A stretch of 64,000 nucleotides of DNA from Gloeomargarita sp. SKYB120 (GCA_025062155.1 JANXAM010000005.1:1-64000); one strand, 5' to 3'. Numbered from the stretch's first letter, positions 45,989 through 61,223 are shown. Notes: a model not told the origin generated them from the letters alone. Translations and numbers: made by a program.

Positions 45989-46740
45989 CGCTGTGGTTGA
46001 TCGGTGGCACTTGCGAGAGCGCAGAATTGGCGGCGCAGTTGGGGGCGGATATGCTCTGCGTGATTACGGTGACCACTGAGCGGGCCAAACGCCTGTACGG
46101 CAACTTAACTGTGTTGGTGACCCATTTAACGCCAGAAAACATTCATGGATTTGTGCGGGATTACCAAATCACCCGTATTTTAGATATGTCTCATCCCCAT
46201 GCGGCTCAAATTTCTCAGCTAGCGATTGCCTGTGCTGCGCAATACCATTTGCCCTATTTGCGCTATGAACGTCCGCCGGTGCCCGACAGCTCCTCCCATT
46301 GCTTTTACTGGCGGGATTTAGATGAGTTATTCAGCCGTTATTCCTTTGGTCGCGAGCGCATTTTGGTTACGTTAGGGTATCGGCAATTGCCCCGCTTAAA
46401 ACCCTACTGGGGCGAGCACAGTTGGTTTGTGCGGATTTTGCCGGACCCTGTAGCATTAACAACTGCTTTGGAGGTAGGATTTTTACCGCAGCACATCATT
46501 GCGCTGTGGCCACCGGTGAGTTATGAGCTAGAGCGTGCTCTCTGGCAACAATGGGGGATTACCCAGGTGATTGCCAAAGCATCAGGCGCCCCAGGCGGGG
46601 AAGCGGTCAAACACCAGGTGGCTCAGGAGTTGGGAGTGGTTTTGCATCTGTTGCAGCGTCCGGCAGTGTCGTATCCCCAGCAGACGGATGATCTGGCGGT
46701 GGCGCTGGCGTTTGCTCGTGGGGAGACGACGCCTGGGTGA
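45985..46740 (+). CDS. cobK: Precorrin-6A reductase (CobK/CbiJ)
   Basis: An NAD(P)H-dependent enzyme of the cobalamin (corrin ring) pathway, 251 residues. The start GTG gives VTLWLIGGTCESAELAAQL, and the text continues DMSHPHAAQISQLAIACAAQYHLPYLRYERPP, RILVTLGYRQL and QVIAKASGAPGGEAVKHQVAQ, all CobK/CbiJ patterns. It overlaps the upstream stop by GTGA. Its last 134 bp overlap the 3' end of the convergent HD gene. That tail (LHLLQRPAVSYPQQTDDLA) still looks like the family's C-terminus, so the extension is on the HD side. Confidence 0.85.
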   Translation: MTLWLIGGTCESAELAAQLGADMLCVITVTTERAKRLYGNLTVLVTHLTPENIHGFVRDYQITRILDMSHPHAAQISQLAIACAAQYHLPYLRYERPPVPDSSSHCFYWRDLDELFSRYSFGRERILVTLGYRQLPRLKPYWGEHSWFVRILPDPVALTTALEVGFLPQHIIALWPPVSYELERALWQQWGITQVIAKASGAPGGEAVKHQVAQELGVVLHLLQRPAVSYPQQTDDLAVALAFARGETTPG

Positions 46741-47311
46741 CTAAAGCCTGCACAACGGCCTGTAATTCCTGGGCCAGAGGACTAGGGTGACGGCGCTGGA
46801 ACAGGTCGGCTAAGCGCTGGTAGTACCACAGAGTCCCCTGCTTGCCCGTACTGAAGCGTTGCCACACAGCTTCCCCCACCTGTTGATAGTCGCGCCAGAT
46901 GGTTTGGGCGTTGTGGAGCTTGTCGGCGTTGGATACCAGCAGGACGTCCCCATCAACCTGTTCCAAGTGGTGTAAATAGGCCTGCTTGCGGGTCCACCAA
47001 TCCCGTGTGTCCGCGTCTTGTCGGTCTGTGCATCCTTCAACAATGCGCAAAACCCGCTCACCGAACTGGGCGGCAATGTCTGCGGCAATTTGAGCGCGAG
47101 TGTAGGTGCTGTAGCGGGGGCCATCTTCCAAACTGTCGTGCAGCAGAGCCGCAATGGCCTGGTCTTCATCGCCGCCATTTTCCAGCACCAGGGCGCTGAC
47201 GGCCAGGAGATGGCTGAGATAGGGAATGGTGGTGCCTTTGCGGACCTGCTTTTGGTGCAGTTGATGGGCATAGGTCAGAGCGCGGGCAAAGCGTTCGCTC
47301 AACATGGTCAT
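46607..47311 (-). CDS. HD-domain phosphohydrolase, MESH1/SpoT-hydrolase-like
   Basis: A 234-residue protein whose first about 175 residues form an HD hydrolase: FARALTYAHQLHQKQVRKGTTIPYLSHLLAVSALVLENGG, then the HD of ALLHDSLEDG, then LVSNADKLHNAQTI. This resembles the (p)ppGpp hydrolase domain of SpoT and MESH1, so a role in alarmone turnover is a fair guess. The C-terminal about 40 residues are Pro/Thr-rich (QTPAPPPDHPSAGDTT) and overlap cobK. The ATG at 47311 overlaps the upstream NYN gene stop. Confidence 0.75.
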   Translation of the reverse strand: MTMLSERFARALTYAHQLHQKQVRKGTTIPYLSHLLAVSALVLENGGDEDQAIAALLHDSLEDGPRYSTYTRAQIAADIAAQFGERVLRIVEGCTDRQDADTRDWWTRKQAYLHHLEQVDGDVLLVSNADKLHNAQTIWRDYQQVGEAVWQRFSTGKQGTLWYYQRLADLFQRRHPSPLAQELQAVVQALVTQASSPHEQTPAPPPDHPSAGDTTLPDAATDAKPLPTPEPPGV

Positions 47312-48297
47312 CACCCCGCCACCGCCGCCGTTTGTTTGGCCGGTAAAGGCACCACTGAACCCCCGGGCGGACATAGCTTGCGCAGGTCCCGGAAGGGAAA
47401 GTGGCTCTTTAACTGATGGTGGGTATCGGGACCAAACGCAGCCACCTCTACCTGCACCCCCTGCTGCTGGAGCCAGTGCAACGCTGGTAAAAAGTCGCCA
47501 TCGCCACTGAGCAGAATCACCTGAGTAAATAGACTTGTCAACATGTCCACAATCATCTGCCCGTCCATATTCGCTTTCGCACCTCCATCGGCAAAGCGGA
47601 CAACTGGTTTGGTATGCACCTGTACCCCCAACTGCTGGAGTTCCTGGTGCAGTTGCCGTTGCTGGGGATGGTGGGGGTAGTGACCGCTGTAGAAATGCAC
47701 CGTAGCGGGGACATCCGAGGGCACCAGCCGGCGCAGGAGTTTCGCATAGTCTAGCGCAACCCCCAACCGGCGGGCGCTTTCGTGGAGATTGGCCCCGTCA
47801 ATAAAGACGCCCACCCCCTGGCGCACCACCAGCCCTTGGCTCAATTGATGCACCTGTTGCTGGAGTTGGTCCAGTTGGGCAACGAGAGCATCCACCCGGG
47901 GAGCAGTTTGGAGTTCGAGTCGCTTCAGGCGGTCGTGGGCATCGTGAACCTCTTGTAAAATCGCTGCCCGTTGCTGCCGGGTTTGGAGAACCACTTGGTC
48001 CAACTGGTTCTGCATGTCCTGTAACTGGCTCAACAGATGGTCTATCCGTTGCTGCTGCTGGCCTAGTGGCCCGACCAGGTCGCTCACTTGAGCGCACTGG
48101 GTTTGCAACTGTTGTAGTTGGGCCAGCGCATAATCGAGCTGCTTTGTCTGCTGATGCACGGTTCGGCTGACCTGGGCCATCTGCCGCCGTTGCCAATGAA
48201 CTGCTAGCGGGATGAACCCGAAGGCCACCTGCCGCGTGCATAAGGTCAACAGCAAAGCGCCGCCCCACCACCATCCGATTGGTATTGTGCTGTTCAT
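47311..48297 (-). CDS. Membrane-anchored coiled-coil NYN-domain protein
   Basis: A 328-residue protein. An N-terminal hydrophobic segment (GWWWGGALLLTLCTRQVAFG) is followed by a long Gln-rich coiled coil (about 40-155), then a NYN/LabA-like domain: GVGVFIDGANLHESARRLGV holds the first acidic cluster, ANMDGQMIVDMLTS the second, and VILLSGDGDFLPALHWLQQQGVQVEVAAFG the third. The conserved Asp residues of the PIN-like nuclease fold are all present, so RNase activity is likely. It precedes the HD gene with an ATGA overlap and neighbours the CRISPR-signalling cluster across a palindrome. Confidence 0.75.
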   Translation of the reverse strand: MNSTIPIGWWWGGALLLTLCTRQVAFGFIPLAVHWQRRQMAQVSRTVHQQTKQLDYALAQLQQLQTQCAQVSDLVGPLGQQQQRIDHLLSQLQDMQNQLDQVVLQTRQQRAAILQEVHDAHDRLKRLELQTAPRVDALVAQLDQLQQQVHQLSQGLVVRQGVGVFIDGANLHESARRLGVALDYAKLLRRLVPSDVPATVHFYSGHYPHHPQQRQLHQELQQLGVQVHTKPVVRFADGGAKANMDGQMIVDMLTSLFTQVILLSGDGDFLPALHWLQQQGVQVEVAAFGPDTHHQLKSHFPFRDLRKLCPPGGSVVPLPAKQTAAVAG

Positions 48298-48349: not shown

Positions 48350-49273
48350 CTACTTTTCCAACGGCAGCGCTAAGCTCTTCAAGCGGTCGAGCAGGCCAGC
48401 CGGCACCGTCACGGGTTGGTCGTCTAGCAAGCCAAGTTCCAGTTCTAGATAGAGTGCTGATTGCCGCAGGTGTTCCCCTTGACCTAGGTACGTATGGACA
48501 ATACCCAGCAATTGTAAGTTACCCCGGTCGGCGCAGAATTCATGCCAAGCAGGAATGGCTTCCGGGTCGCGGCTGACGACTAGGTAGTGGGTGCAGGCTT
48601 CTAGCAAGGGTTGTTTGGCTGGGTCCACTTTGCCCCCCACATCCACCAGCACCAGTTGTTTTTGGCGGCGCAATTGCAGAATGGCTTGGGCCTGCCAGGG
48701 GAAAAACTCGCTGGTCGGTTGACCTCGATACCGGTCTTTCAACATTTTTCCCTGGTCGGCATCGTGAATTTCCAACAACCAGTTACCTTCGCCATCCCAG
48801 TGTGCCCGTTGTAAGTACACCTCTGGACAGGCAGGTAGCAGGGCTTGAAACAGGGCATGGGCCAGACGACTTTTACCGCTGTGGGGTGGACCGACAATCA
48901 TCACTGCCGGCGCTAGGCGGTTTTGTAGGGTTGGCAGAACTATGCGCAACACTTGCCCCACGCGTACCTCTGGGTGATGGGTGTTGACGACAACGGCCCC
49001 CAAACGCGGGTCGTAGCAGGCCACCCAGCGCGTGTGATGACAGGCATGAACCAACCAGCCGTACAGCCAAATCGGCGCGCGACCACTAATCACCACGCCC
49101 TTGGTTGGGTCCAGTTGGTTCGGAAGATGCAGGGTCGCCAAATCTTCCGGAAACATCAACCGGTCTGGACGCACTAGCTCAATTTCTAGGACTTGGCAAT
49201 CCAAACCGCTCTGGGTGGTCGCGGCTCGCCAGTGTAAGACAACAGTTGGAGATGTCATTGCTTCATCATGCAT
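48350..49273 (-). CDS. Csx3-AAA fusion (CRISPR-associated, putative ring-nuclease module)
   Basis: A 307-residue protein. Residues about 26-112 match the Csx3/Crn3 fold: VLEIELVRPDRLMFPEDLATL, VVISGRAPIWLYGWLVHACHH and WVACYDPRLGAVVVNTHHPEV. Csx3/Crn3 binds and degrades cyclic tetra-adenylate made by type III CRISPR complexes. From about 120 comes a P-loop NTPase domain with Walker A GPPHSGKS (128-135) and Walker B KQLVLVDVGG. Csx3 fused to AAA is known in cyanobacteria; the ATPase role is unclear. The start is either 49273 or ATG 49258 (MTSPTVVL), neither with a good ribosome binding site. It is divergent from the CARF-RelE gene. Confidence 0.75.
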   Translation of the reverse strand: MHDEAMTSPTVVLHWRAATTQSGLDCQVLEIELVRPDRLMFPEDLATLHLPNQLDPTKGVVISGRAPIWLYGWLVHACHHTRWVACYDPRLGAVVVNTHHPEVRVGQVLRIVLPTLQNRLAPAVMIVGPPHSGKSRLAHALFQALLPACPEVYLQRAHWDGEGNWLLEIHDADQGKMLKDRYRGQPTSEFFPWQAQAILQLRRQKQLVLVDVGGKVDPAKQPLLEACTHYLVVSRDPEAIPAWHEFCADRGNLQLLGIVHTYLGQGEHLRQSALYLELELGLLDDQPVTVPAGLLDRLKSLALPLEK

Positions 49274-49369
49274 GGATTGGGTACGCTATCAATCCTAAAT
49301 TCTTTTGGAAACTTACCCTTCGAGTCAGCCACAGACTGCACATAATGTAAAGTGTTTTGGGAGATGAAC

Positions 49370-50479
49370 ATGCCATACACGTTGATGGTATCCCCTTGCG
49401 GCACAAGCACCTTAACCAACCAGGCCGGTGAACACGTTCGTTCGTTGTTGACACGCACAGCCAATGCTCGTGAACAGGACTTAAGCTTCCCAGGTAAGCA
49501 AACGATAGACCAGTACCTCTCTCAGCGGGAACAGGACATTTTATCCGCAGACGTGAATCAGGTTCGGCGTTGGAGTGCGGAACTCAACGGCATTCTGGCC
49601 TATTACGATGGGCAACTCCCTCCTCAGACAGACATTCATCTGTTGCTGGCTACTGCTACCTACCAGGGACAAAAGACTGCGGACCTGATTGCTCGCTGGT
49701 TGCAAGCCCACGGTTGCCATGCAGAAGTCCACCCCATTTCCCGTGACTTAAATGTAGGAAGTGCGGAAGCATTTCGGGTGGCCATGGCCGAGTTGGTGCA
49801 GTGGGTGGAAGACACCATTCCTGGTTATCGCCAGCATCAATACCAGGTTGTCTTTAACCTCACCGGCGGCTTTAAAAGTGTGAACGGTTTTTTGCAGACA
49901 ATTGGGATGTTCTACGCCGATGAGTGTGTGTATATCTTCCAAGACTCACGAGAGTTGATTCGCATTCCACGTTTGCCAGTCAAGCTAGATGCTGAGAGCA
50001 TTATCGGAGAACATTTGCTGCTTTTCCGGCGTTTAGGGGTAGGTGCAACCCTGCCGCTAGAGGACTGTCGGTCAATTCCCGAAACGCTGTTATTCATCCA
50101 TGGAAATCAGGCAGTGCTTTCCGAGTGGGGAAAACTAGTTTGGAATCGTTGTAAAGCATCCTTCTACTCTCAGGGCTTACTCGAACCGTTGAGCGCCAAG
50201 ATTCGCTATTCTGAAGCCTTTCAAAAAGCGGTTCATGAACTGCCACCTGAGCGCCAAGCAATCATCAATGAGCGCTTGGACCAATTGAGTCGCTATTTAG
50301 ATGACCCTAAAGCTCGTTACAATCCCTCATCGTTGGATTTCAAACCGCTGCGGGGGAACCCGTGTCCCCCTTCGACCCATGAATGCGACGCTTGGAGTGA
50401 TTTAGATGCTAAACGCATTTTTGGTCATTTTGAAGAAGGAGTCTTTGTGATTGATCGGCTAGATAAGGGGTTGCACTGA
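49370..50479 (+). CDS. CARF-RelE fusion, Cami1-like CRISPR ancillary RNase
   Basis: A 369-residue protein. The N-terminal CARF domain has VSPCGTSTLTN (7-17) and FNLTGGFKSVNGFLQTIGMFYADECVYIF (LTGGFKS from about 164), as in the APE2256/TIGR02619 CARF group. A middle part links to residues about 265-369, which read as a RelE/ParE toxin fold: KIRYSEAFQKAVHELPPERQ, LDFKPLRGNP and the final RIFGHFEEGVFVIDRL. The domain order matches Cami1, a cA4-activated, ribosome-dependent mRNA interferase. GGGAG lies 6 nt before ATG 49370. The next gene starts at its last stop base, so they are coupled. Confidence 0.65.
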   Translation: MPYTLMVSPCGTSTLTNQAGEHVRSLLTRTANAREQDLSFPGKQTIDQYLSQREQDILSADVNQVRRWSAELNGILAYYDGQLPPQTDIHLLLATATYQGQKTADLIARWLQAHGCHAEVHPISRDLNVGSAEAFRVAMAELVQWVEDTIPGYRQHQYQVVFNLTGGFKSVNGFLQTIGMFYADECVYIFQDSRELIRIPRLPVKLDAESIIGEHLLLFRRLGVGATLPLEDCRSIPETLLFIHGNQAVLSEWGKLVWNRCKASFYSQGLLEPLSAKIRYSEAFQKAVHELPPERQAIINERLDQLSRYLDDPKARYNPSSLDFKPLRGNPCPPSTHECDAWSDLDAKRIFGHFEEGVFVIDRLDKGLH

Positions 50480-51825
50480 TGGAATTCCACCTCCCTTTGA
50501 CCGTTGCTGTTCTAAATGAATTGTCAGGTTATCACCTGAGTGAGCGCTTGGGACTGGCTGTACGGCTATGGGTTGTGTTGCACAAGCTGTATGGGGAAGA
50601 AGACGACCTTTTTCGTGACTTACCAAATCCCTTTAGCTATACAGCGATTCGTGACCGGTTGCTTTCGCCGCTGCATCCTAAAAATGACCCACCAGCAGGC
50701 GAGTCTGTAACCTGTCCTGACCAGGAATGTATTTGTCATTTGCCCCTGAGTCATTGGATTGATGAAACGATTGGTAGCGAGTTGCAAAGAGCACTGGGAT
50801 TTTCGGATGATATTTGGCAGGAGAAATTGCAAGAAAAACCATTCGGTCATTCCCATCGCACGTTACGTAAAATACTTCCCGCTCTTGTGAGTCTGGGTTA
50901 TTTGAAAACGAGAGGTTATGCTAAATTTTATCGCCTACCTCTCGACAGTCTTCCAGTATTACCGAGCCAAAACCACGGGAAGTCACTATCTGTTATTCAA
51001 AGCCTGGATATTCTCAATGACATTAGTTTTATGGACCCACGGTTATCCGTCGTCCTAGCGGAATTGCAACAGGATTATCCAGCAAACAAGCGCTTCTTTT
51101 TGCATCTGGATTTCATTCTCCCGCCTAATAAGCAGGAACAGGTGGATGACCTGCAACAGCAGTTGAACGAGTTGTGGGCATCACCTGAGATAACACCTGT
51201 GCGTTTTGATTACCACACGAGAGAGAAGGGAGTGCAACGTCTCGTAGCTTACCCTGTGTGTTTGTTCTATGCGCGACGGGCTAAATACCTCAGTGCGTAT
51301 GGTCAAACGCCTAGTGGTTCGATTGGCTGGCACAACTTTCGTATGGACCGGGTTACGTCTGAAAAATTTGAGATATTGACCTGGAAACACACTGCAATCC
51401 CTGGCGAGTTGGTACGCCTGAAAAAACAAAACCAGTTGCCGACTCCCGAGGATGTAGAACTGGCCTGGCAAGAAGCATGGGGCACCGATTTTTATCTTCC
51501 TAAGGCCCTAATGATTCTGCGGTTTGAACCCGCCTTTGCCCAGCGGTATATCGAAGGGACGGAACGCCATCCCACCTTCCGCCGCGTGGATTATTACAAA
51601 ATTCCCACTCTACTGCGCCACAGCCCTGAACGACAGCAGGTGCAACGAATTTTGGCGCAGCGCTCCCCTGACGATGCCTACTACCAAGCCTGGGTGCGAG
51701 TAGGAGATACGAACTTGACCATGCGCTTGCGGGATTGGCGGCCCAATGGCGAAGTAATTGCCCCCTTGCAATTGCGGGAACAAATGCGCCAAGAAGCGGA
51801 AAAAGAACTGAGTTTTTATCGTTAA
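50479..51825 (+). CDS. WYL-like CRISPR-associated protein, TIGR03985-like
   Basis: A 448-residue protein. The N-terminal half contains a helix-rich region with a likely winged-helix piece (HRTLRKILPALVSLGYLKTRGYAKFYRL). The second half contains a WYL-like ligand-binding domain (RLVAYPVCLFYARRAKYLSAYG, then YLPKALMILRFEPAFAQRYIEGTERHP). I recognise the pattern of the cyanobacterial TIGR03985 CRISPR-associated family. WYL proteins usually regulate defence genes in response to nucleotide ligands, so this is a candidate transcriptional regulator of the cluster. It overlaps the CARF-RelE stop by one base. Confidence 0.65.
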   Translation: MEFHLPLTVAVLNELSGYHLSERLGLAVRLWVVLHKLYGEEDDLFRDLPNPFSYTAIRDRLLSPLHPKNDPPAGESVTCPDQECICHLPLSHWIDETIGSELQRALGFSDDIWQEKLQEKPFGHSHRTLRKILPALVSLGYLKTRGYAKFYRLPLDSLPVLPSQNHGKSLSVIQSLDILNDISFMDPRLSVVLAELQQDYPANKRFFLHLDFILPPNKQEQVDDLQQQLNELWASPEITPVRFDYHTREKGVQRLVAYPVCLFYARRAKYLSAYGQTPSGSIGWHNFRMDRVTSEKFEILTWKHTAIPGELVRLKKQNQLPTPEDVELAWQEAWGTDFYLPKALMILRFEPAFAQRYIEGTERHPTFRRVDYYKIPTLLRHSPERQQVQRILAQRSPDDAYYQAWVRVGDTNLTMRLRDWRPNGEVIAPLQLREQMRQEAEKELSFYR

Positions 51826-51843
51826 TCTGATAGGGGCTACGCC

Positions 51844-53079
51844 ATGACAATTCTCATCACAACTATAGGCACAACTGAGTACGATACAACAACGTATTAC
51901 TTTCCCGATGAAGCCAAATACTGCACCTGTTATGTAGCTGAGGCGATTGCCCTGATGCGTCATGTGAATCGAGTAATCTTTTTACTAACAGAGCAAGCCC
52001 GCCAGAAGCATTGGTAGCATTTACAACAGCGTTTTAAGGACTGTCAAATTGCAATTACTGTTGAAGCTCGCGCTATTCCTGACGGTCAGACGGAAGCAGA
52101 AATCTGGCAAATTTTCGATGTTCTTGTGGATGCAGTTCCAGCGAATGCCAATGTAATTTTTGACATTACTCATGCATTTCGCTCGATACCAGTCCTGGTG
52201 TTGCTGGGGGCGGCCTTTTTACGCCGGGCAAAAAATGTCAATATCCGAGGTTTGTACTACGGTCTATACCGGCCTGGTCAGGCAAAAACTCCCATTATTG
52301 ACCTAACGCCGGCGCTGCGCTTGCTGGATTGGTTGACGGCGACGGATAAGTTTATTAGCACTGGCTCGGCGGTGGAACTAGGGCAATTGCTCAACACCAT
52401 TCAACAGGACTTCTACCGCTCGCAACGGCCACAAAAAGAAGACCCCCGCCCCACAACCCTTAAGCGCTTTGGCACCGCTATCCAACAGGTGTCGCGTTCC
52501 CTGGAACTGGTGCGCCCCATGAGTTTACTCAAAGAGGATTTGCCGAAATTGGTCCATGTTTCGACAGACCAGCTTGCCCAAGAAGTGGGTCAATTTGCCC
52601 AGCCGTTTGGATTATTGCTGGATGCAGTACAACAGAGTTATTTACCGCTGGCGCTGGCTGGTGAAAATGCAACTCCTGATGACCAGGTCCGAAAACAATT
52701 TCGCCTGTTGCAGTGGTATGTAGATAAGGGTTTGACCTTGCAGGCGCTGTTGCTGGCTAGGGAATGGACAATCTTGGCGCTGTGCCTGCTAGCTGGGTAT
52801 GCGGATTACCTTGACCGCGATAGCCGGGAGGCGATTGAGGAACAACTGAAGGCAATGATTGGGTATGGGGAACGTCCGGGTTTGGACCAGCCGATTGCTG
52901 CTTATGTGCCCGATGCAAAAAAGCTGGCGGATTTTTGGTCCTGTTTGACGGAGTACCGCAATGACCTGGCCCATGTGCAGATGCGCAAGAATTTCCTAAA
53001 CAGTGGTACCCTGGAGAACTTTGCCCTGAACGACCTGCTGCCGACTTTACAGGCGCTTTTCCCTAGCTTTTGCCAATGA
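51844..53079 (+). pseudogene. CARF-HEPN (TIGR02221/Csx-type) RNase gene interrupted by in-frame TAG
   Basis: With AGGGG upstream, ATG 51844 opens a frame encoding TILITTIGTTEYDTTTYYF, a CARF start, up to QARQKHW, then TAG at 52015-52017 (codon 58). The same frame continues without another stop: HLQQRFKDCQIAITV, NVIFDITHAFRSIPVLVLLG (DxTHG-like motif at about 107-112), and ends at 53079. The C-terminal domain contains RNDLAH (R-x4-H, about 372-377), the HEPN RNase motif. So a Csx1/Csm6-like cyclic-nucleotide-activated RNase of about 411 residues is split by one nonsense codon. An internal ATG at 52126 could give a 317-residue product lacking the N-terminal CARF part. Confidence 0.75.
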
Positions 53080-53156: not shown

Positions 53157-55457
53157 ATGTTTGCCGTTGCTCCTGTCACTGCTGGGTTGCAAACGCCAGA
53201 AGGCGCGCCGATTCCATTGCGGGGCGTGGATTTTGACGTGACGATTCGGGATATAGGCGCTCAGGTGACGGTTTCTCAGCATTTCCAGAATGTGGAATCC
53301 CAGCCTATCGAAGCGGTGTACTCGTTTCCCTTGCCGGAAGGGGCGGCCATCTGCGGGTTTGAGGTGCGCTTGGGGGAGCGGGTGATCACGGGGCGGGTAG
53401 AAGAAAAAGAAACAGCCTTTGTCCAGTACGACGAAGCTCTGAAGGAAGGTCAGGGCGCCTATCTCATTGACCAGGACCGGCCCAACATCTTCACCATCTC
53501 GGTGGGGAATCTGTTGCCCCAGCAGTCGGTGGTGATTCGGATTCGCTATGTGCAAGAGCTGGAAACACACGCCACAGGTGGCCGGCTGGTGATTCCCACG
53601 ACCATTTCCCCCCGCTATGTGCCGCTGGAACAATTGCAAACGGCGCCAGCCAGTGAACTGATGCACATCAATCCCCCAACGGTTCTAGGTCCTTTACCTT
53701 ACGGGATGCGGCTGCGCGTGGAGGTGGTCACCAGCAGTCCCTTGGTGAGTGTAGAATCCCCTTCGCACCCCATCCGCTGTACGCTGGCCGATGGTCGCGC
53801 TCAGGTGGAACTGGTGGGGGACCAGGTGCAACTGGACCAGGACTTTGTGCTGAACTATACGGTGCAAAAGCCACACGCGCCCCAGGTGCGCATCGCCCGC
53901 GATATCGGGTCTGATGGGTTTGTGGCGATGGTGAGTTTTTGGCCGGAATTTCAGGTCTCATCTCGGTCACCCCAAGAGTACATCTTTGTGCTGGATCGGT
54001 CGGCTTCAATGACCGGCGAGAGCATCCAGCAGGCGAAAACGGCGTTGCTTCTTTGCCTGAAATCCATGCAGCCGGGGGACCAGTTCAATATCTATGGCTT
54101 CGGTTCAACCTATGAAAAGCTCTTTCCCCGCAGCCAGCCCTATACACCAGAAAACCTGACGACAGCGACGAGCCATGTGCAACGGTTGGATGCCGATTTA
54201 GGCGGTACAAAAATCTATTCCGTTTTGCAAGATGCCTTGGCCCACGCTGGCAGTTTGCCCAGTAGCCAGGTGATTGTGCTGACCGATGGGCAGATAGGCA
54301 ATGAAGCGCAGGTCATCGAATTGGCGCAGCGCTATCGAGGTCGGGTGCGTGTGTTTCCCTTTGGGATTGGGCGGGGACCCAATGAGTATTTCATTCGAGC
54401 GCTGGCGCGGGTGACAGACGGGGCAGCAGAGTTCATCTTTCCAGGGGAGCGTATCGAACCCAAGGTCATGCAGCAATTTGCCCGCATGGGAATGCCCTAC
54501 GCTGAACAACAGGTGCGCCTGGATTGGGGTGGCTTGCCGGTCAATCTCGTGACGCCCCGCGTGTTGCCTCCTTTGTTTAGCGGTCAGCGCTGGACTGTTT
54601 ATGGACGCCTGGATGCCCTGAAACCGGCGCAAATACGGCTGGAGGCGGTTATCGCTGGACAAACCTACACCTGGGAATTGCCGGTGGACCCTAACCAGCT
54701 AGACGACACGCCGATTGTTACGCTGCTGTTTGCCCGCAGCGCGATTCGTGATTGGGAAGAGCATCCCCAAGAATGGACGGGTTCCCAACAACGGGAGCGG
54801 AAGGCCGAGTCGCGTGCTCGTCAGGAAGCGCTGGTGGAACTGGGGTGTCGTTACCAGTTGCTGTCGTCCCAAACCAGCTTTGTGGCCATCGAGCAGCGAC
54901 CCGACGGGGATAAAACGGTGGAAATCAAACTGCGGCGGGTGCCGGTTGCCCTGACACGAGGTTGGGGTGGCACTCCTACAGTTAGCTCCGCTGAACTTTC
55001 AACTTCTTGCTATGGTATTGACTTCCGTTTTTGCGATGATGATGATATTGACTTCCGTCATCGTACTTATCCCGCTGCCAGAACGACACTCGTCTCAGGT
55101 GACTCGGATAACACTGCGTTCACAAAGCTCATTGCCGCTCAGGATTTTGAGGGATTTTGGCCGCTGAGTTCTGAGCTGATGCGGTTATTGGGCTGGGACA
55201 AAGCGAAGAAGGCAAAACGTGCGATTGCGGCGCTCAAAAACGCTGGTATTGCTAAGGAAATAGCCGAAAAAATAGTGGCGACGTTGTTGGCCCTAGACGC
55301 ACTCCAGCAGCGTTTTGGGCACAGGCAGGTCGAATGGCAGCTTCTGGCCCAGAAAGCAGAATGCTGGTTGCAGCAACTCGCTTTGACACCCCCTGGCGCT
55401 GGGAGTCAACCGGCAGACCTAGTGACCCGTTGGCGGCAGTGGTATGAGCGGCTGTGA
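53157..55457 (+). CDS. VIT and von Willebrand factor A domain protein
   Basis: A 766-residue protein. Residues about 1-135 are a VIT domain (RGVDFDVTIRDIGAQVTVSQ, YSFPLPEGAAICGFEVRLGE). A VWA domain follows from about 275, with an intact MIDAS motif DRSASMTGES (D280) and later VIVLTDGQIGNE. The C-terminal helical region (WPLSSELMRLLGWDKAKKAK) resembles the ends of VWA5/PARP4-like proteins. A short acidic insert (FCDDDDIDFRH) comes from a 30-bp in-frame duplication. There is no signal peptide, so it is probably cytosolic. GGAGG precedes the ATG. The function is unknown; similar proteins often scaffold with ATPases. Confidence 0.82.
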   Translation: MFAVAPVTAGLQTPEGAPIPLRGVDFDVTIRDIGAQVTVSQHFQNVESQPIEAVYSFPLPEGAAICGFEVRLGERVITGRVEEKETAFVQYDEALKEGQGAYLIDQDRPNIFTISVGNLLPQQSVVIRIRYVQELETHATGGRLVIPTTISPRYVPLEQLQTAPASELMHINPPTVLGPLPYGMRLRVEVVTSSPLVSVESPSHPIRCTLADGRAQVELVGDQVQLDQDFVLNYTVQKPHAPQVRIARDIGSDGFVAMVSFWPEFQVSSRSPQEYIFVLDRSASMTGESIQQAKTALLLCLKSMQPGDQFNIYGFGSTYEKLFPRSQPYTPENLTTATSHVQRLDADLGGTKIYSVLQDALAHAGSLPSSQVIVLTDGQIGNEAQVIELAQRYRGRVRVFPFGIGRGPNEYFIRALARVTDGAAEFIFPGERIEPKVMQQFARMGMPYAEQQVRLDWGGLPVNLVTPRVLPPLFSGQRWTVYGRLDALKPAQIRLEAVIAGQTYTWELPVDPNQLDDTPIVTLLFARSAIRDWEEHPQEWTGSQQRERKAESRARQEALVELGCRYQLLSSQTSFVAIEQRPDGDKTVEIKLRRVPVALTRGWGGTPTVSSAELSTSCYGIDFRFCDDDDIDFRHRTYPAARTTLVSGDSDNTAFTKLIAAQDFEGFWPLSSELMRLLGWDKAKKAKRAIAALKNAGIAKEIAEKIVATLLALDALQQRFGHRQVEWQLLAQKAECWLQQLALTPPGAGSQPADLVTRWRQWYERL

Positions 55458-55878: not shown

Positions 55879-58329
55879 TTGGTCGCCCTGAGTGTGAATC
55901 ACGAAGCATTGTTTTACCAAGCACTCGAACAGCTTTTTATTGGTGTTCCCGTTGAAGGACAATCGGGTTATATTAATCTCATGAGCATCAAATCTCGCTA
56001 TTACCGCGAAATTTTTGCTCCAGGGCTACGTCAGTATGTTGATGAACAACTGGTAAACTTCCCCACTTTTCGGGAAGAACTCTACGACAAGCTGTATGCT
56101 TTTTTCAAGCGTTATTTTTCAGCCAATGGTTCGCTTGGTTTTTTCTTCACCCCCTGCCATGAGAGCCTATACGAGCGAGTCTACACCGACGACCAGGACG
56201 TTATGCTGTTCTGGAAAACGTCGCGCCTTTACTACATCAAAACTGAGCGATTGTTTCGCAGTATGACCTTAGAAATAAACGGTTATCATCTCCACTTTGA
56301 TGTCTCACGAATGGAACATAAAAAAGCCAATGAGAAGCGACAGCTAACCTACTCCCTGGACAGTCTAGATGGCGCGATCCGCTTCCAGGTCTCCTATGCC
56401 GAAGGCAGTAAAAAAACTGACAAAAAGAGTATGATAAAAATGTTGCGCTCACGTGGCATCAACCTGAATGAAGACGACTTAGAAAAAGCCTTTAATCTGT
56501 TTGAAAGGCAAGCGGAGATAGACTATTTTCTGTGCAAGGATGCCAGATCTTTCTTGCGCGAGCAGTTTGACTTGTGGTTATTTCAGTATCTTCTCAGGGA
56601 ACCAGACAACCAGTTCAGCCAAACCCGACTCACCCAACTGCAAGTGCTCAAAAAGGTTGCATATCGGGTTATTGATTTTATTGCCGCATTTGAAGATGAA
56701 CTGGTCAAGATCTGGAATAAACCAAAATTTGCTTTACATTCTCATTATGTCATTACCCTTGACCAGCTCTGGGCAAAGAGTCCTGCGATGGTTGACCGGT
56801 TACTCACCCACCCTAGCATGGAAACACAGGTGCAGGAGTGGCAAGCCCTCGGATTAGTTGACGCTGATTTTACCCCCACCAAAATCTGGGATACAAGTAG
56901 CCTGTTTCGAGACTTGCATCGTGATTTTCAATTCTTGCCGGTAGACACACGCTATTTTGCCGATATAGAGTTAGAGATTTTAGACCTGTTTGATCAGTTG
57001 GATAGCACCCTTGACGGCTGGTTAGTTAAGAGTGAGAATTACCAGGCCTTGAATACGTTACTTCCCAAGTGGCGTGGGAAGGTCAAGTGTATCTACATTG
57101 ATCCCCCCTTTAACAAGGACCAGGAGGCAGACTACCAGTACATGGTTCATTACAAAGACGCTACTTGGTTGACAATGTTAGAAAATCGTCTATCAATTGC
57201 CCGTCATTTTTTGCGTCCGGATGGTCATTTGTTTGTGCGCTGCGATTACTGTGGCAATGCCTATGTCCGACTGCTGCTCAATCATCTCTTAGGGCCAGAG
57301 AATTTTCGCAATGAAATTGTGGTCAAACGCGGCGCAAGTAAAGCTGGATTGATGGGCCAATTCCGGGGTATTCGTTCAATGGCTGTAGGGTATGACAATC
57401 TCTACTGGTACACGCGGCATCCTGATACACGCATTGCAGGCTTCTTTAAGCCGGCATCACCAAAGCAGCGTGCATCTGGTTCTTGGGTAGATTTTCACAA
57501 GGGTGAGCATTATGACCGCCCTACGATGCGCTATGAAATACTAGGCGTCTCCATTGAAGTCGGACAGTGGAAATGGAGTCGGGAGCGTGCAATGCGAGCT
57601 GTGGAAAACTACCAGCGGTACCTAGAAGAAAGCCGCTTCACAGGTGAGACCCTGGAGCAGTACTGGTACCGGCATGGGTGCAACTTGGAGTTTATCCGTC
57701 GGGAAGGGGACCGGATTAAGTATTGGGTTCACCCCCGCGAAGAAGTGCTTTTGGATAATGTGTGGCTCGATATTGCCGGCTACAGCGCTAATTGGGGATT
57801 TTTGACCGAAAATGCGGAAGCACTGCTGACGCGCGTGTTGTCTCACGTGACAGAAGTTGGCGATGTGGTGATGGACTTCTTCCTAGGTTCGGGGACCACA
57901 GTTGCGGTAGCGCACAAACTTAAACGCAGATGGATTGGTATTGAAATGGGAGAGCACTTCTACACCGTTGTTTTGCCGCGCATGAAAAAAGTTATTTTTG
58001 AAAGTAAGGGCGGTTTTTTCAAGTATTTTGAACTTGAACAGTATGAGCAAACCTTAGCGCGATGTAAGTATGACCCTAATCCAAGTATTTTCGGTGATGA
58101 ACCACCCCTGATGAACCATCTCAAGCTGCTGGACACTGTAGAGTTAAAGGAGAATGAGGTCAATCTAAAGCTAGAACAACTCTATGAGGGGATTGACCGA
58201 GCAGAGACTATTTCGTTGCTGTCGGGTGTTTCCATTAAAAATCTTTCCCCACGGGGAGGAACGCTCGAAGATGGCACGAAAGTAGAAACAATTAGTCCAA
58301 GGCAATGGTTGAAACTGTTGTGGTGGTAG
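55879..58329 (+). CDS. Type III-like DNA methyltransferase (Mod)
   Basis: An 816-residue adenine-N6-type DNA methyltransferase. Motif IV is CIYIDPPFN (about 407-412) and motif I is MDFFLGSGTTVAVAHKLKRRWIGIE (about 664-690). Motif IV precedes motif I, which is the beta-class order seen in type III Mod subunits. About 370 residues precede the catalytic domain, with YFLCKDARSFLREQFDLWLF and similar helical text, longer than in classical Mod. The start is TTG 55879 or GTG 55894. It probably modifies the recognition site of the downstream nuclease/helicase. The region is AT-richer than the core. Confidence 0.85.
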   Translation: MVALSVNHEALFYQALEQLFIGVPVEGQSGYINLMSIKSRYYREIFAPGLRQYVDEQLVNFPTFREELYDKLYAFFKRYFSANGSLGFFFTPCHESLYERVYTDDQDVMLFWKTSRLYYIKTERLFRSMTLEINGYHLHFDVSRMEHKKANEKRQLTYSLDSLDGAIRFQVSYAEGSKKTDKKSMIKMLRSRGINLNEDDLEKAFNLFERQAEIDYFLCKDARSFLREQFDLWLFQYLLREPDNQFSQTRLTQLQVLKKVAYRVIDFIAAFEDELVKIWNKPKFALHSHYVITLDQLWAKSPAMVDRLLTHPSMETQVQEWQALGLVDADFTPTKIWDTSSLFRDLHRDFQFLPVDTRYFADIELEILDLFDQLDSTLDGWLVKSENYQALNTLLPKWRGKVKCIYIDPPFNKDQEADYQYMVHYKDATWLTMLENRLSIARHFLRPDGHLFVRCDYCGNAYVRLLLNHLLGPENFRNEIVVKRGASKAGLMGQFRGIRSMAVGYDNLYWYTRHPDTRIAGFFKPASPKQRASGSWVDFHKGEHYDRPTMRYEILGVSIEVGQWKWSRERAMRAVENYQRYLEESRFTGETLEQYWYRHGCNLEFIRREGDRIKYWVHPREEVLLDNVWLDIAGYSANWGFLTENAEALLTRVLSHVTEVGDVVMDFFLGSGTTVAVAHKLKRRWIGIEMGEHFYTVVLPRMKKVIFESKGGFFKYFELEQYEQTLARCKYDPNPSIFGDEPPLMNHLKLLDTVELKENEVNLKLEQLYEGIDRAETISLLSGVSIKNLSPRGGTLEDGTKVETISPRQWLKLLWW

Positions 58330-58341
58330 AGGTCAAAGCCA

Positions 58342-59148
58342 ATGTCCCCTGAAGAAGTTATCGAATTTTGCCTGGAGCCGGACGTCTACAGTCAGATCTG
58401 CCGCTCTGCGGTACATTATGCCCTGCTCTCTTTGCCCTTTACAACCAACCGGATGCAGATCAATGACTTGCAACAACGAGTTGTCAACATCGCCAAGGGT
58501 AAGATTGCTGAGGGGATGGTCAGGGAGTTTTGCCGACGATATGCACCATCGGCTGATTTCGAGACGACAGCGACTCCTTACTACCAGGTGGATAAACGCG
58601 ATTTTTTATTCAGATGTCTAGAGTGGGACATCAAGACCAATTTTTACTCAATCGAGAACCCATCGTCTGAACAGGTAATGGATTTTCCGGCATTGGTACC
58701 TAACAGATCAGACTAGGACCAGTGGAGCAAACGCACAACTACCTATTTCTCAAGTACCGCCCGGAATGGTGTGGCTTTTCTATTTGCATTTCTTCCACAA
58801 AACTCTTTGACAAAAGACCTAGTACATCTACCGGATAAAGCCGTTTCGATCATTAAAAAGTATGAACGTATTTACTGTGGCAAACCACAGTCTACGCCAC
58901 CTTCAAAAATCTATGAACAGGAAATGGAAGACCTATGGCGTCAAACTGTGATTGAAGACCCATTGGTATGGCCAACCATTCTCATCACTGCCTATGCAAA
59001 ATCCGACCACTTTGAAAAGTTTCACACCGTTGAACCTCAAACTTTCCACACAAGGAATGGACAAGAGATTTTGAGAACAGCTATCAGAAATGCCTATTGT
59101 CGAGTCGGAGACTTACCAGCGTTCAAAACACTCATTAGTACACCTTGA
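58342..59148 (+). pseudogene. PD-(D/E)xK-like restriction nuclease gene interrupted by in-frame TAG
   Basis: The frame encodes 124 residues, TAG at 58714-58716, then another 143 residues in the same frame, from DQWSKRTTTYFSSTARNG to KTLISTP. The first part has AEGMVREFCRR, then YQVDKRDFLFRC and LEWDIKTNF; D84/D87 with E94/D96 and K98 fit a PD-(D/E)xK active site. I propose the endonuclease of the system, carried on its own gene. It lies 12 bp after the methyltransferase and overlaps the helicase TTG. An internal ATG at 58771 gives only the C-terminal half, without the active site. Confidence 0.6.
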
Positions 59149-59150
59149 AG

Positions 59151-61223
59151 ATGAATTTATCTACATTCTCATTGACCAAAACGCTGTGGCCCTACCAGCA
59201 GGAAGCTCTAGAAACGGCTGTGGAGTTTTTACGGCAATACTATGCCGACCTGACCCTTTCCACCGACGAACGGAAACAACGACTTTGGCGCACTTATCTT
59301 GCCAATGGCATTGACCCCAAAGCCTATGACGAGCGTTTTCCTGAACAGCAACGCCTGAGCAGTACCCAGCGGCAAATTGGCCAGCTTTATCGGGCTTATG
59401 GTCTCTTAGATGCGGAGAACTGTCTCCCCTTTTGGCGTATCTGTAACCGGGCCGGTTTTTGGATGGCAACCGGCAGCGGTAAAACACTGATCATCGTTAA
59501 GTTGGTTGAGCAACTGGCAAAGTTAATGAGTGACCAGACGATTCCCCAAAATGATATTTTGCTCCTTTCTCATCGGGAAGAATTATTAAACCAAATCCGA
59601 GCGCATGTTGCGGAATATAACCAAGCGCTTCCTGAATACCAGATTGTGCTAGAAGATTTGAAACAATTTCCAGAAATTAAGCGTTTCCAGCCGTCACTAC
59701 CAAGCCGGGCCGTCACGGTATTTATTGCTAATGCCGACCACTTAACTCTTGAGCAAAAGCAAAAAGAACTGGATTTTCGCAACTATGAAAATGGCGGTCG
59801 CTGGTATATCATCCTGGATGAAGCGCACCGGGGAGATAGTAAGGACTCACTTCGCAAGGCAATTTTCAATATCATGAGTCGTAATGGATTTTTGTTTAAC
59901 TTCAGCGCCACCTTCACGGACCCTAAAGACCAATTGACGACCATCTACAATCTGAATCTCTCGGAGTTTGTCCGACAGGGATATGGAAAGCATATTGCTA
60001 TCTTGCCGGACGACACAAGTGCTTATTCTGCAGGTGATTACACCAATGAACGAAAACAGGAAATTGTTTTGCAGGCGCTCTTGTTGCTCACTTACCTCAA
60101 GCGTATCCGGGCGGAATTACCAGTATCACTTCCTTATCACTCGCCGTTGCTGGTGGTCTTTGTTAACTCGGTTCAGGCGGCAAATTCAGATTTGGAATTG
60201 TTTTTCCGGGAGCTGGAGCGCGTGGGACGGGGCCAGGTGCCCCCAACCTGTCTGGAACAGGCCAAACGCATGTTAGTCCAGCATTTGCAAAGCCTTAGCA
60301 CTCCCTTCAGTGGAGAAAAGCATGTGGCCCCACCCAGGGTTACATGGTTGACCACTTTCCAACTGCAGGACATTCTCCAGCACGTCTATCACGCTGAGAG
60401 TCCTGGCCTGACGGAGGTAATTATTTCAGCGCAGGACCAGCGGGAAATGGCCCTGAAGCTGAAGACGGGGGAACGGCCTTATGCGCTCATCCGTATTGGG
60501 GAGACAAAGAACTGGTTGCAAAAGCAGCTGCGGGGTGTCGAGATTTTGGAATCAGTGCAGGAACAAACATTTTTTGCGTCCCTGAACCAGGAAGACTCAC
60601 CTATCAATATCCTGCTTGGTTCTCGGATGTTCTATGAAGGGTGGGATTCCAGTCGGCCCAATATCGCGCTGTACGTCAACATTGGCAAACAGCAGGAAGC
60701 GCGAAAATTTGTGTTGCAGTCAATCGGGCGTGGGGTGCGAATCTCGCCCGCTCCGGGTGTGCGTGGGCGCTTGGAAAAACATCCGCATTTACAAGCTCAG
60801 GTAGCTGACTCTCACTGGGTCGAACCACTCGAAACACTGTTCATTTGCGCTGCATCTCGACCGGCCATGCACCACATCTTGGCAACACTAGATGCAGTTC
60901 AGCAACCGGTATCGTCCTTCAACCAGCGAGTCAAAAGAGTACTGTCACCGCCCAAACTGCCGCAGAATCTGTCGCCTTTTGCCATCACGCCAGAAGACCT
61001 GCATCGGCTGCAAAGGTACGTAGCTCACGTAGACCCACGCATTCTCTGGGCTGCTCACGGTTACCAACCCTGCGAGATTCGCTTACTGCATAAGGTATTA
61101 AATCGGGCGCGGGATTATTTCCAACTGCACAACGCCCAACCTGTGCCCAGCATCCGTCAACTTTTGAGCAAGTTGCACCTTTATTTGGTGACCTATGGCC
61201 ACCTTTTGGATGATGGAAATTGA
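59151..61223 (+). CDS. Type III Res-like DEAD/DEAH helicase without visible nuclease domain
   Basis: A 690-residue superfamily 2 helicase. Walker A is WMATGSGKT (ending about 112), motif Ia LLSHREELLNQI, motif II DEAH (IILDEAHRGDSKDSLR), motif III FSATFTD, and motif VI QSIGRGVRISPAPG. These match type III restriction Res subunits, but the usual C-terminal PD-ExK endonuclease of about 200-300 residues is absent. After motif VI only a helical tail follows (HRLQRYVAHVDPRILWAAHG). The separate nuclease gene just upstream may replace it. The start is ATG 59151, or TTG 59145 overlapping the previous stop. Its stop lies 5 bp from the convergent TonB-like gene. Confidence 0.8.
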   Translation: MNLSTFSLTKTLWPYQQEALETAVEFLRQYYADLTLSTDERKQRLWRTYLANGIDPKAYDERFPEQQRLSSTQRQIGQLYRAYGLLDAENCLPFWRICNRAGFWMATGSGKTLIIVKLVEQLAKLMSDQTIPQNDILLLSHREELLNQIRAHVAEYNQALPEYQIVLEDLKQFPEIKRFQPSLPSRAVTVFIANADHLTLEQKQKELDFRNYENGGRWYIILDEAHRGDSKDSLRKAIFNIMSRNGFLFNFSATFTDPKDQLTTIYNLNLSEFVRQGYGKHIAILPDDTSAYSAGDYTNERKQEIVLQALLLLTYLKRIRAELPVSLPYHSPLLVVFVNSVQAANSDLELFFRELERVGRGQVPPTCLEQAKRMLVQHLQSLSTPFSGEKHVAPPRVTWLTTFQLQDILQHVYHAESPGLTEVIISAQDQREMALKLKTGERPYALIRIGETKNWLQKQLRGVEILESVQEQTFFASLNQEDSPINILLGSRMFYEGWDSSRPNIALYVNIGKQQEARKFVLQSIGRGVRISPAPGVRGRLEKHPHLQAQVADSHWVEPLETLFICAASRPAMHHILATLDAVQQPVSSFNQRVKRVLSPPKLPQNLSPFAITPEDLHRLQRYVAHVDPRILWAAHGYQPCEIRLLHKVLNRARDYFQLHNAQPVPSIRQLLSKLHLYLVTYGHLLDDGN

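Follow-up and report, generated by a model that had tools for sequence, protein, structure and literature searches.

A cluster of cyclic-oligoadenylate (cOA) response genes in Gloeomargarita sp. SKYB120 is very probably an accessory module, part of an ordinary type III-B CRISPR-Cas system, that has been relocated away from its cas10-cmr operon and answers it in trans. The cluster lies in the window, the whole stretch of 64,000 nucleotides that was analysed (G000:C5:1-64000), which comes from an assembly of 2.48 Mb in 91 contigs. The basis in hand consists of gene families, conserved residues, the gene order of relatives, a stop codon and the presence of Cas10 elsewhere in the genome. From these we infer the ligand, activation in trans, RNase activity and control by the WYL protein. 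The module is of a known kind, set in an unusual place and partly broken, and an HD protein is a plausible additional partner.

Composition of the module

The first-pass annotation had described four gene families standing together, and all four were recovered by HMM searches with strong scores. Its reading of a cOA response module, with two CARF RNases, a ring nuclease-AAA protein and a WYL regulator, was confirmed at the level of families. Genes for a CARF effector and a ring nuclease lie side by side, as in a type III accessory module.

The csx3-AAA gene (48350-49273, minus strand; PADLOC Csx3-AAA 1.3e-96, TIGR02579 3.8e-36) encodes a Crn3 ring nuclease domain joined to an AAA/kinase-like domain and is divergent from the CARF-RelE gene. 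When an operator was sought in the gap between the two, just one weak shared block was found. No gap interrupts the alignment of the Csx3 domain with Csx3 of A. fulgidus (AF_1864) over the stretch holding S44-G45-R46, I49, H57, H60, D69, R71 and H80, and all of these residues are kept. They are given as the cA4 binding and cleavage residues of Crn3/Csx3, whose longer Csx3' form is common in cyanobacteria and whose genes adjoin III-B operons and Csx1 (PMC7371418). Next on the minus strand is the gene for a NYN (LabA-like) nuclease-family protein (47311-48297; Pfam NYN 8.2e-24, PADLOC NYN 4e-21) with a hydrophobic and coiled-coil N-terminal part. By synteny, this gene stays with csx3 in siblings and in a genome of another family (G101). 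It is overlapped by the gene for a predicted HD hydrolase (HD_4; 46607-47374, minus strand; Pfam HD_4 7.9e-22), which is discussed below. A CARF-HEPN-Csx3 fusion is encoded elsewhere in the genome, near a contig end (G000:C21, L075 9901-11436; PADLOC 2.5e-160), and represents a third cOA-response locus or gene of this organism.

The CARF-RelE gene (49370-50479, plus strand) encodes a full-length match to PADLOC CARF7--CARF_RelE (3e-131), in which CARF7 is joined to RelE. The ORF is open from GTG 49352. Since the sibling proteins align from ATG 49370 onwards, this codon, preceded by GGGAG, is the more likely start. The protein is 46.5% identical over its whole length to Sll7062 (SyCsm6) of Synechocystis 6803, its closest characterised relative, which belongs to a type III locus. 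Sll7062 was shown to degrade cOA and had no RNase activity in vitro (PMC9676260). In a structure search with a moderately confident model (pLDDT 73), Cami1 ranked first (8phb, E 1.1e-14), the match running along the whole length. By these similarities the protein would be a Cami1/SyCsm6-like RNase or ring nuclease, and it is probably the working effector of the module. No match to CARF-RelE was found in the phage collection searched.

The stop codon of CARF-RelE overlaps the start of the following gene as TGATG, so translational coupling of the two is plausible. The second gene (50479-51825, plus strand) encodes a TIGR03985 HTH-WYL protein (1e-96; 323 bits against a curated cut-off of 60), a predicted DNA-binding regulator of the module. 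Its structure model (pLDDT 78) matches DriD, PafBC, CapW and BrxR, which are wHTH-WYL regulators. The TIGR03985 protein sll7078 has been called a potential regulator, and no account of TIGR03985 beyond that one was found in the literature searched. In one relative (G005), only a short piece of the WYL gene is left between CARF-RelE and CARF-HEPN (G005:C41, L018 4491-4736), and another WYL piece lies elsewhere (L079 8044-8199). Going by these pieces, the regulator may be dispensable.

At the far edge of the module is the gene for a VIT-VWA protein (53157-55457, plus strand; Pfam VIT 2.4e-34, VWA), a neighbour for which no functional part is claimed. An ORF at 58342-59145 carries an in-frame TAG (58714-58716) and had no Pfam or PADLOC match. 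It is flanked by a type III methylase gene (55879-58329) and a helicase/nuclease gene (59145-61223) in a restriction locus. The only RNA element found in the window was a single tRNA-Ser.

The interrupted CARF-HEPN gene

Two candidate cOA-activated RNases had been proposed in the cluster. Both CARF families were confirmed, but the CARF-HEPN gene (Csx1; 51844-53079, plus strand; TIGR02221 7e-23, PADLOC CARF2--CARF_HEPN 5.6e-80) carries a premature stop. The ORF first annotated (52126-53079) was assigned to the right family, yet it opens at an internal GTG and is only the stretch after the stop; the gene begins at ATG 51844. The in-frame TAG is codon 58 (52015-52017, plus strand). This position is read through in G001, G003, G004 and G005, and the codon of G001, which encodes Gln, is one base away from TAG. 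The TAG as a recoded sense codon was ruled out, since csx3-AAA in the same module terminates with TAG. The protein keeps the HEPN motif RNDLAH (Rx4-6H) and DITHA, a CARF DxTHG-like motif, and scores 35.6 bits with TIGR02549 (cut-off 21). Without the intact reading frame of a Csx1, the CARF-HEPN effector as assembled is broken. Translation from a downstream start would give a product that lacks the beginning of its CARF domain, and the assembled sequence is therefore not expected to yield a Csx1 under cOA control.

Is the module then a decaying remnant, non-functional after parting from cas10 and heading for loss? The nonsense codon fits such a course, as do the stop in the ORF of the neighbouring restriction locus, an extra base in one cas10 of the genome, the WYL gene of G005 in pieces and the deletion of the module in another relative (G002). 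On the other side, Csx3-AAA, CARF-RelE and the WYL protein are intact with their motifs kept, and G006 has a Csx3-AAA that is 98% identical to the window protein over the 228 residues present. The lesions could be assembly errors. Decay of the whole module is rather unlikely, and a relocated module that still answers Cas10 is the preferred reading.

Cas10 elsewhere in the genome

The cluster had been called an orphan whose signal source lies elsewhere. Locally the term is correct: a Cas10 palm search gave no match on the contig of the window (C5), and no CRISPR-type repeat spacing was found in the window or in the tested parts of that contig. Genome-wide it is false. The search of the genome gave two Cas10 matches above cut-off, both type III-B and both bearing GGDD. 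They lie on other contigs (C55 and C59) rather than in a normal locus just beyond the window, and the signal source is outside the window, as had been suggested.

Contig C55 (7.3 kb) holds Cas10, Cmr3, Cmr4, Cmr5 and Cmr6 together with an 11-copy repeat array. Contig C59 (4.9 kb) holds Cmr3, Cmr4 and a Cas10 truncated by the contig end. Compared with G006, a TATATA run near the end of the C55 cas10 (L003 ~5449) contains an additional base, which brings the ORF down to 429 aa and is an assembly error or a mutation. The activity of both Cas10 synthases is not certain because one cas10 is cut and the other has an extra base.

A candidate cmr gene on the window's contig (L005 16440-17105) had given a match to a gene located within the cmr operon of the siblings. 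It was rejected, as it has paralogues in several places and its sequence reads as Uma2-type. Genes that are Uma2-like by sequence lie inside the siblings' cas10-cmr operon (L080 2627-3304 and 6361-7026 in G001), and the window's contig carries paralogues of them between 80 and 82 kb (L005 16440-17836).

Gene order in relatives

The host belongs to a Gloeomargarita-like genus. In Gloeomargaritales cyanobacterium VI4D9 (G001, OV696605.1), the genes for HD, NYN and Csx3-AAA on the minus strand are followed by CARF-RelE, WYL, CARF-HEPN, cas10, cmr3 and cmr4 on the plus strand. G003 has the same order plus one additional ORF between WYL and CARF-HEPN, and its VIT-VWA gene sits past the cas10-cmr operon. 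The module is next to cas10 in these two genomes and not in that of the window. In G004, a single-contig genome, the VIT-VWA gene comes next after the module, as it does in the window, and a C-terminal HEPN fragment is located 40 bp upstream of cas10, ~15 kb from the module. G006 shares proteins with the window's genome that are mostly 90-98% identical. Its contig with the same left flank terminates inside csx3, and its cas10 is on another contig with an unrelated gene upstream. G002 (99% complete) has no Cas10 match, and profile searches of it gave no match to CARF-RelE, TIGR03985, Csx3 or TIGR02221. Its left flank is kept: the HD gene is followed ~210 bp on by decayed VIT-VWA pieces, so that the outer flanks are ~210 bp apart. 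The simplest history, read from a single case rather than from a statistical test, is that the module was once joined to cas10, parted from it in some lineages and disappeared with Cas10 in one.

How common is this arrangement? CARF-RelE was found in 27 of the 390 genomes of the class (in G388 as a partial match only). Cas10 scored above cut-off in 25 of the 27 and was located <=20 kb from CARF-RelE in 18 of those 25. CARF-RelE was found without Cas10 above cut-off in G005 (83% complete) and G343. In the latter (99% complete), CARF-RelE and TIGR03985 lie on one contig (G343:C117, L188). Sets of WYL, Csx3-AAA and CARF-RelE far from the nearest Cas10 were found in two species of one genus, at 338 kb in G028 (L021 2730-9179) and at 759 kb in G183 (L190 6541-12998). 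Separation of the module from cas10 is a minority arrangement, yet recurrent.

Could the module instead be a self-contained orphan unit, one that hears some synthase other than Cas10 (a CD-NTase or an unknown cyclase) or works independently of CRISPR? A contig without Cas10 would suit this reading, as would the modules distant from Cas10 in G028 and G183 and the CARF-RelE and TIGR03985 genes of G343. However, the genome has two Cas10 genes, the module adjoins cas10 in G001 and G003, and it is lost in the sibling without Cas10 (G002). The independent unit was dropped because Cas10 was found in the genome, and it is very improbable. The claim that the cluster forms a complete signal-response unit also failed, given this Cas10, the siblings' modules beside or near cas10 and the premature stop in one RNase. 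Least credible is a misassembly that pulled apart a module and cas10 lying side by side on the true chromosome: the assembly has 91 contigs and one of them, of 4.9 kb, is cut within cas10, but CARF-HEPN runs into VIT-VWA in the window as in single-contig G004, the stretch lost from G002 stops at the same VIT-VWA gene, and the cas10 of the near relative G006 has a different upstream neighbour.

A predicted HD hydrolase next to the module

The HD protein matches small alarmone hydrolases in the PDB (best 1.8e-41) and keeps HDSLED and ADKLHN, which correspond to the HDxxED and ADKxxN motifs. It is predicted to be a hydrolase of the small-alarmone-hydrolase type. Among 18 plasmid records with a TIGR03985 gene, 14 have a gene for a relative of this protein alongside it; several of these are near-identical Synechocystis records. 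The pair occurs in Synechocystis 6803 (SGL_RS00990, by position sll7077), 6714, 7338 and 7339, and also in Nostoc, Sphaerospermopsis, Gloeothece 7424, Lyngbya BL J and G169. In Allocoleopsis, HD is within 2 kb of TIGR03985. No HD gene adjoined TIGR03985 in Anabaena cylindrica, Pseudanabaena galeata, Microcystis NIES-2481 or Nostoc edaphicum. The string HD-NYN-Csx3AAA is present in Gloeomargarita relatives and in G101. HD_4 genes next to TIGR03985 or NYN-Csx3 span several cyanobacterial genera (L208 22879-23460; L210 6343-6915; L214 6287-6871; L110 6020-6604; L196 2108-2698). Solitary HD homologues also exist, for instance in Gloeothece verrucosa. Grouping of the linked HD proteins in one CRISPR-specific clade was rejected (AU p 0.013; 18 rows, long branches). 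Thus, HD and the module became associated on more than one occasion, or the link was lost in between.

PADLOC includes no dedicated model for the HD protein. The literature searched contained no mention of sll7077 and no account with both type III CRISPR and an alarmone hydrolase. No description of the HD-TIGR03985 pairing was found, and an earlier notice in Shah 2019 or Shmakov 2018 is possible. As a tentative proposal, the HD hydrolase could be a recurrent, functionally linked part of cyanobacterial TIGR03985-containing type III accessory modules and might degrade a nucleotide sensed by the WYL protein, timing recovery from the RNase response. This nucleotide may be linear cOA cleavage products or (p)ppGpp. 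TIGR03985 and the alarmone-hydrolase-like HD protein are a concrete gene pair that is testable in Synechocystis 6803.

Proposed mechanism and implications

Csx1, Cami1 and Crn3 have been described as cA4 proteins (PMC11229360, PMC12409355), and for this reason we infer cA4 as the likely signal. A Cmr complex from another locus would detect foreign RNA, and its Cas10 would make cyclic oligoadenylate, most likely cA4. This would diffuse and activate CARF-RelE to cut mRNA on ribosomes. Alternatively, CARF-RelE might at least bind and degrade cA4, like its Synechocystis relative. Csx3-AAA would remove cA4 and reset the cell. The HTH-WYL protein, whose gene overlaps CARF-RelE, would set the expression of the divergent module.

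Close relatives show intact adjacency, a scar and a deletion: the accessory module of a type III system can part from its cas10 and persist. In the relative without Cas10, the module is absent. Surveys restricted to a few kb around cas10 will overlook such effectors; a survey of ring nucleases examined <=6 kb from type III loci (PMC12409355).

Comparison with known systems

The module can be compared with several known systems. The CARF-RelE protein Cami1 (Mogila et al., 2023, cited in PMC11229360) shares its fold with the window protein over the full length. In contrast, sequence identity is ~20%, and the nearest characterised relative, Sll7062, cleaved cOA without RNase activity in vitro. 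Every cA4 binding and cleavage residue of Crn3/Csx3 of A. fulgidus is present in Csx3-AAA (PMC7371418), whereas the window protein carries the fused AAA/kinase-like domain of the Csx3' form. The type III-B locus of VI4D9 has the same HD-NYN-Csx3AAA / CARF-RelE-WYL-HEPN order at ~48-73% protein identity. It differs in that its CARF-HEPN is intact and cas10-cmr3-cmr4 comes directly after. The type III genes on pSYSA of Synechocystis 6803 include the same four families (PMC9676260). Beside Sll7062 (46.5%), the identities to the window proteins are 31% for the Csx1 Slr7061, 29% for the TIGR03985 protein Sll7078 and 28% (181 residues) for the Csx3-AAA protein Slr7080. On pSYSA, the CARF genes are in the 51-62 kb locus (III-D in PMC9676260), while TIGR03985 and Slr7080 are near the III-B locus, ~20 kb apart. 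In the window, the genes form one cluster without cas10.
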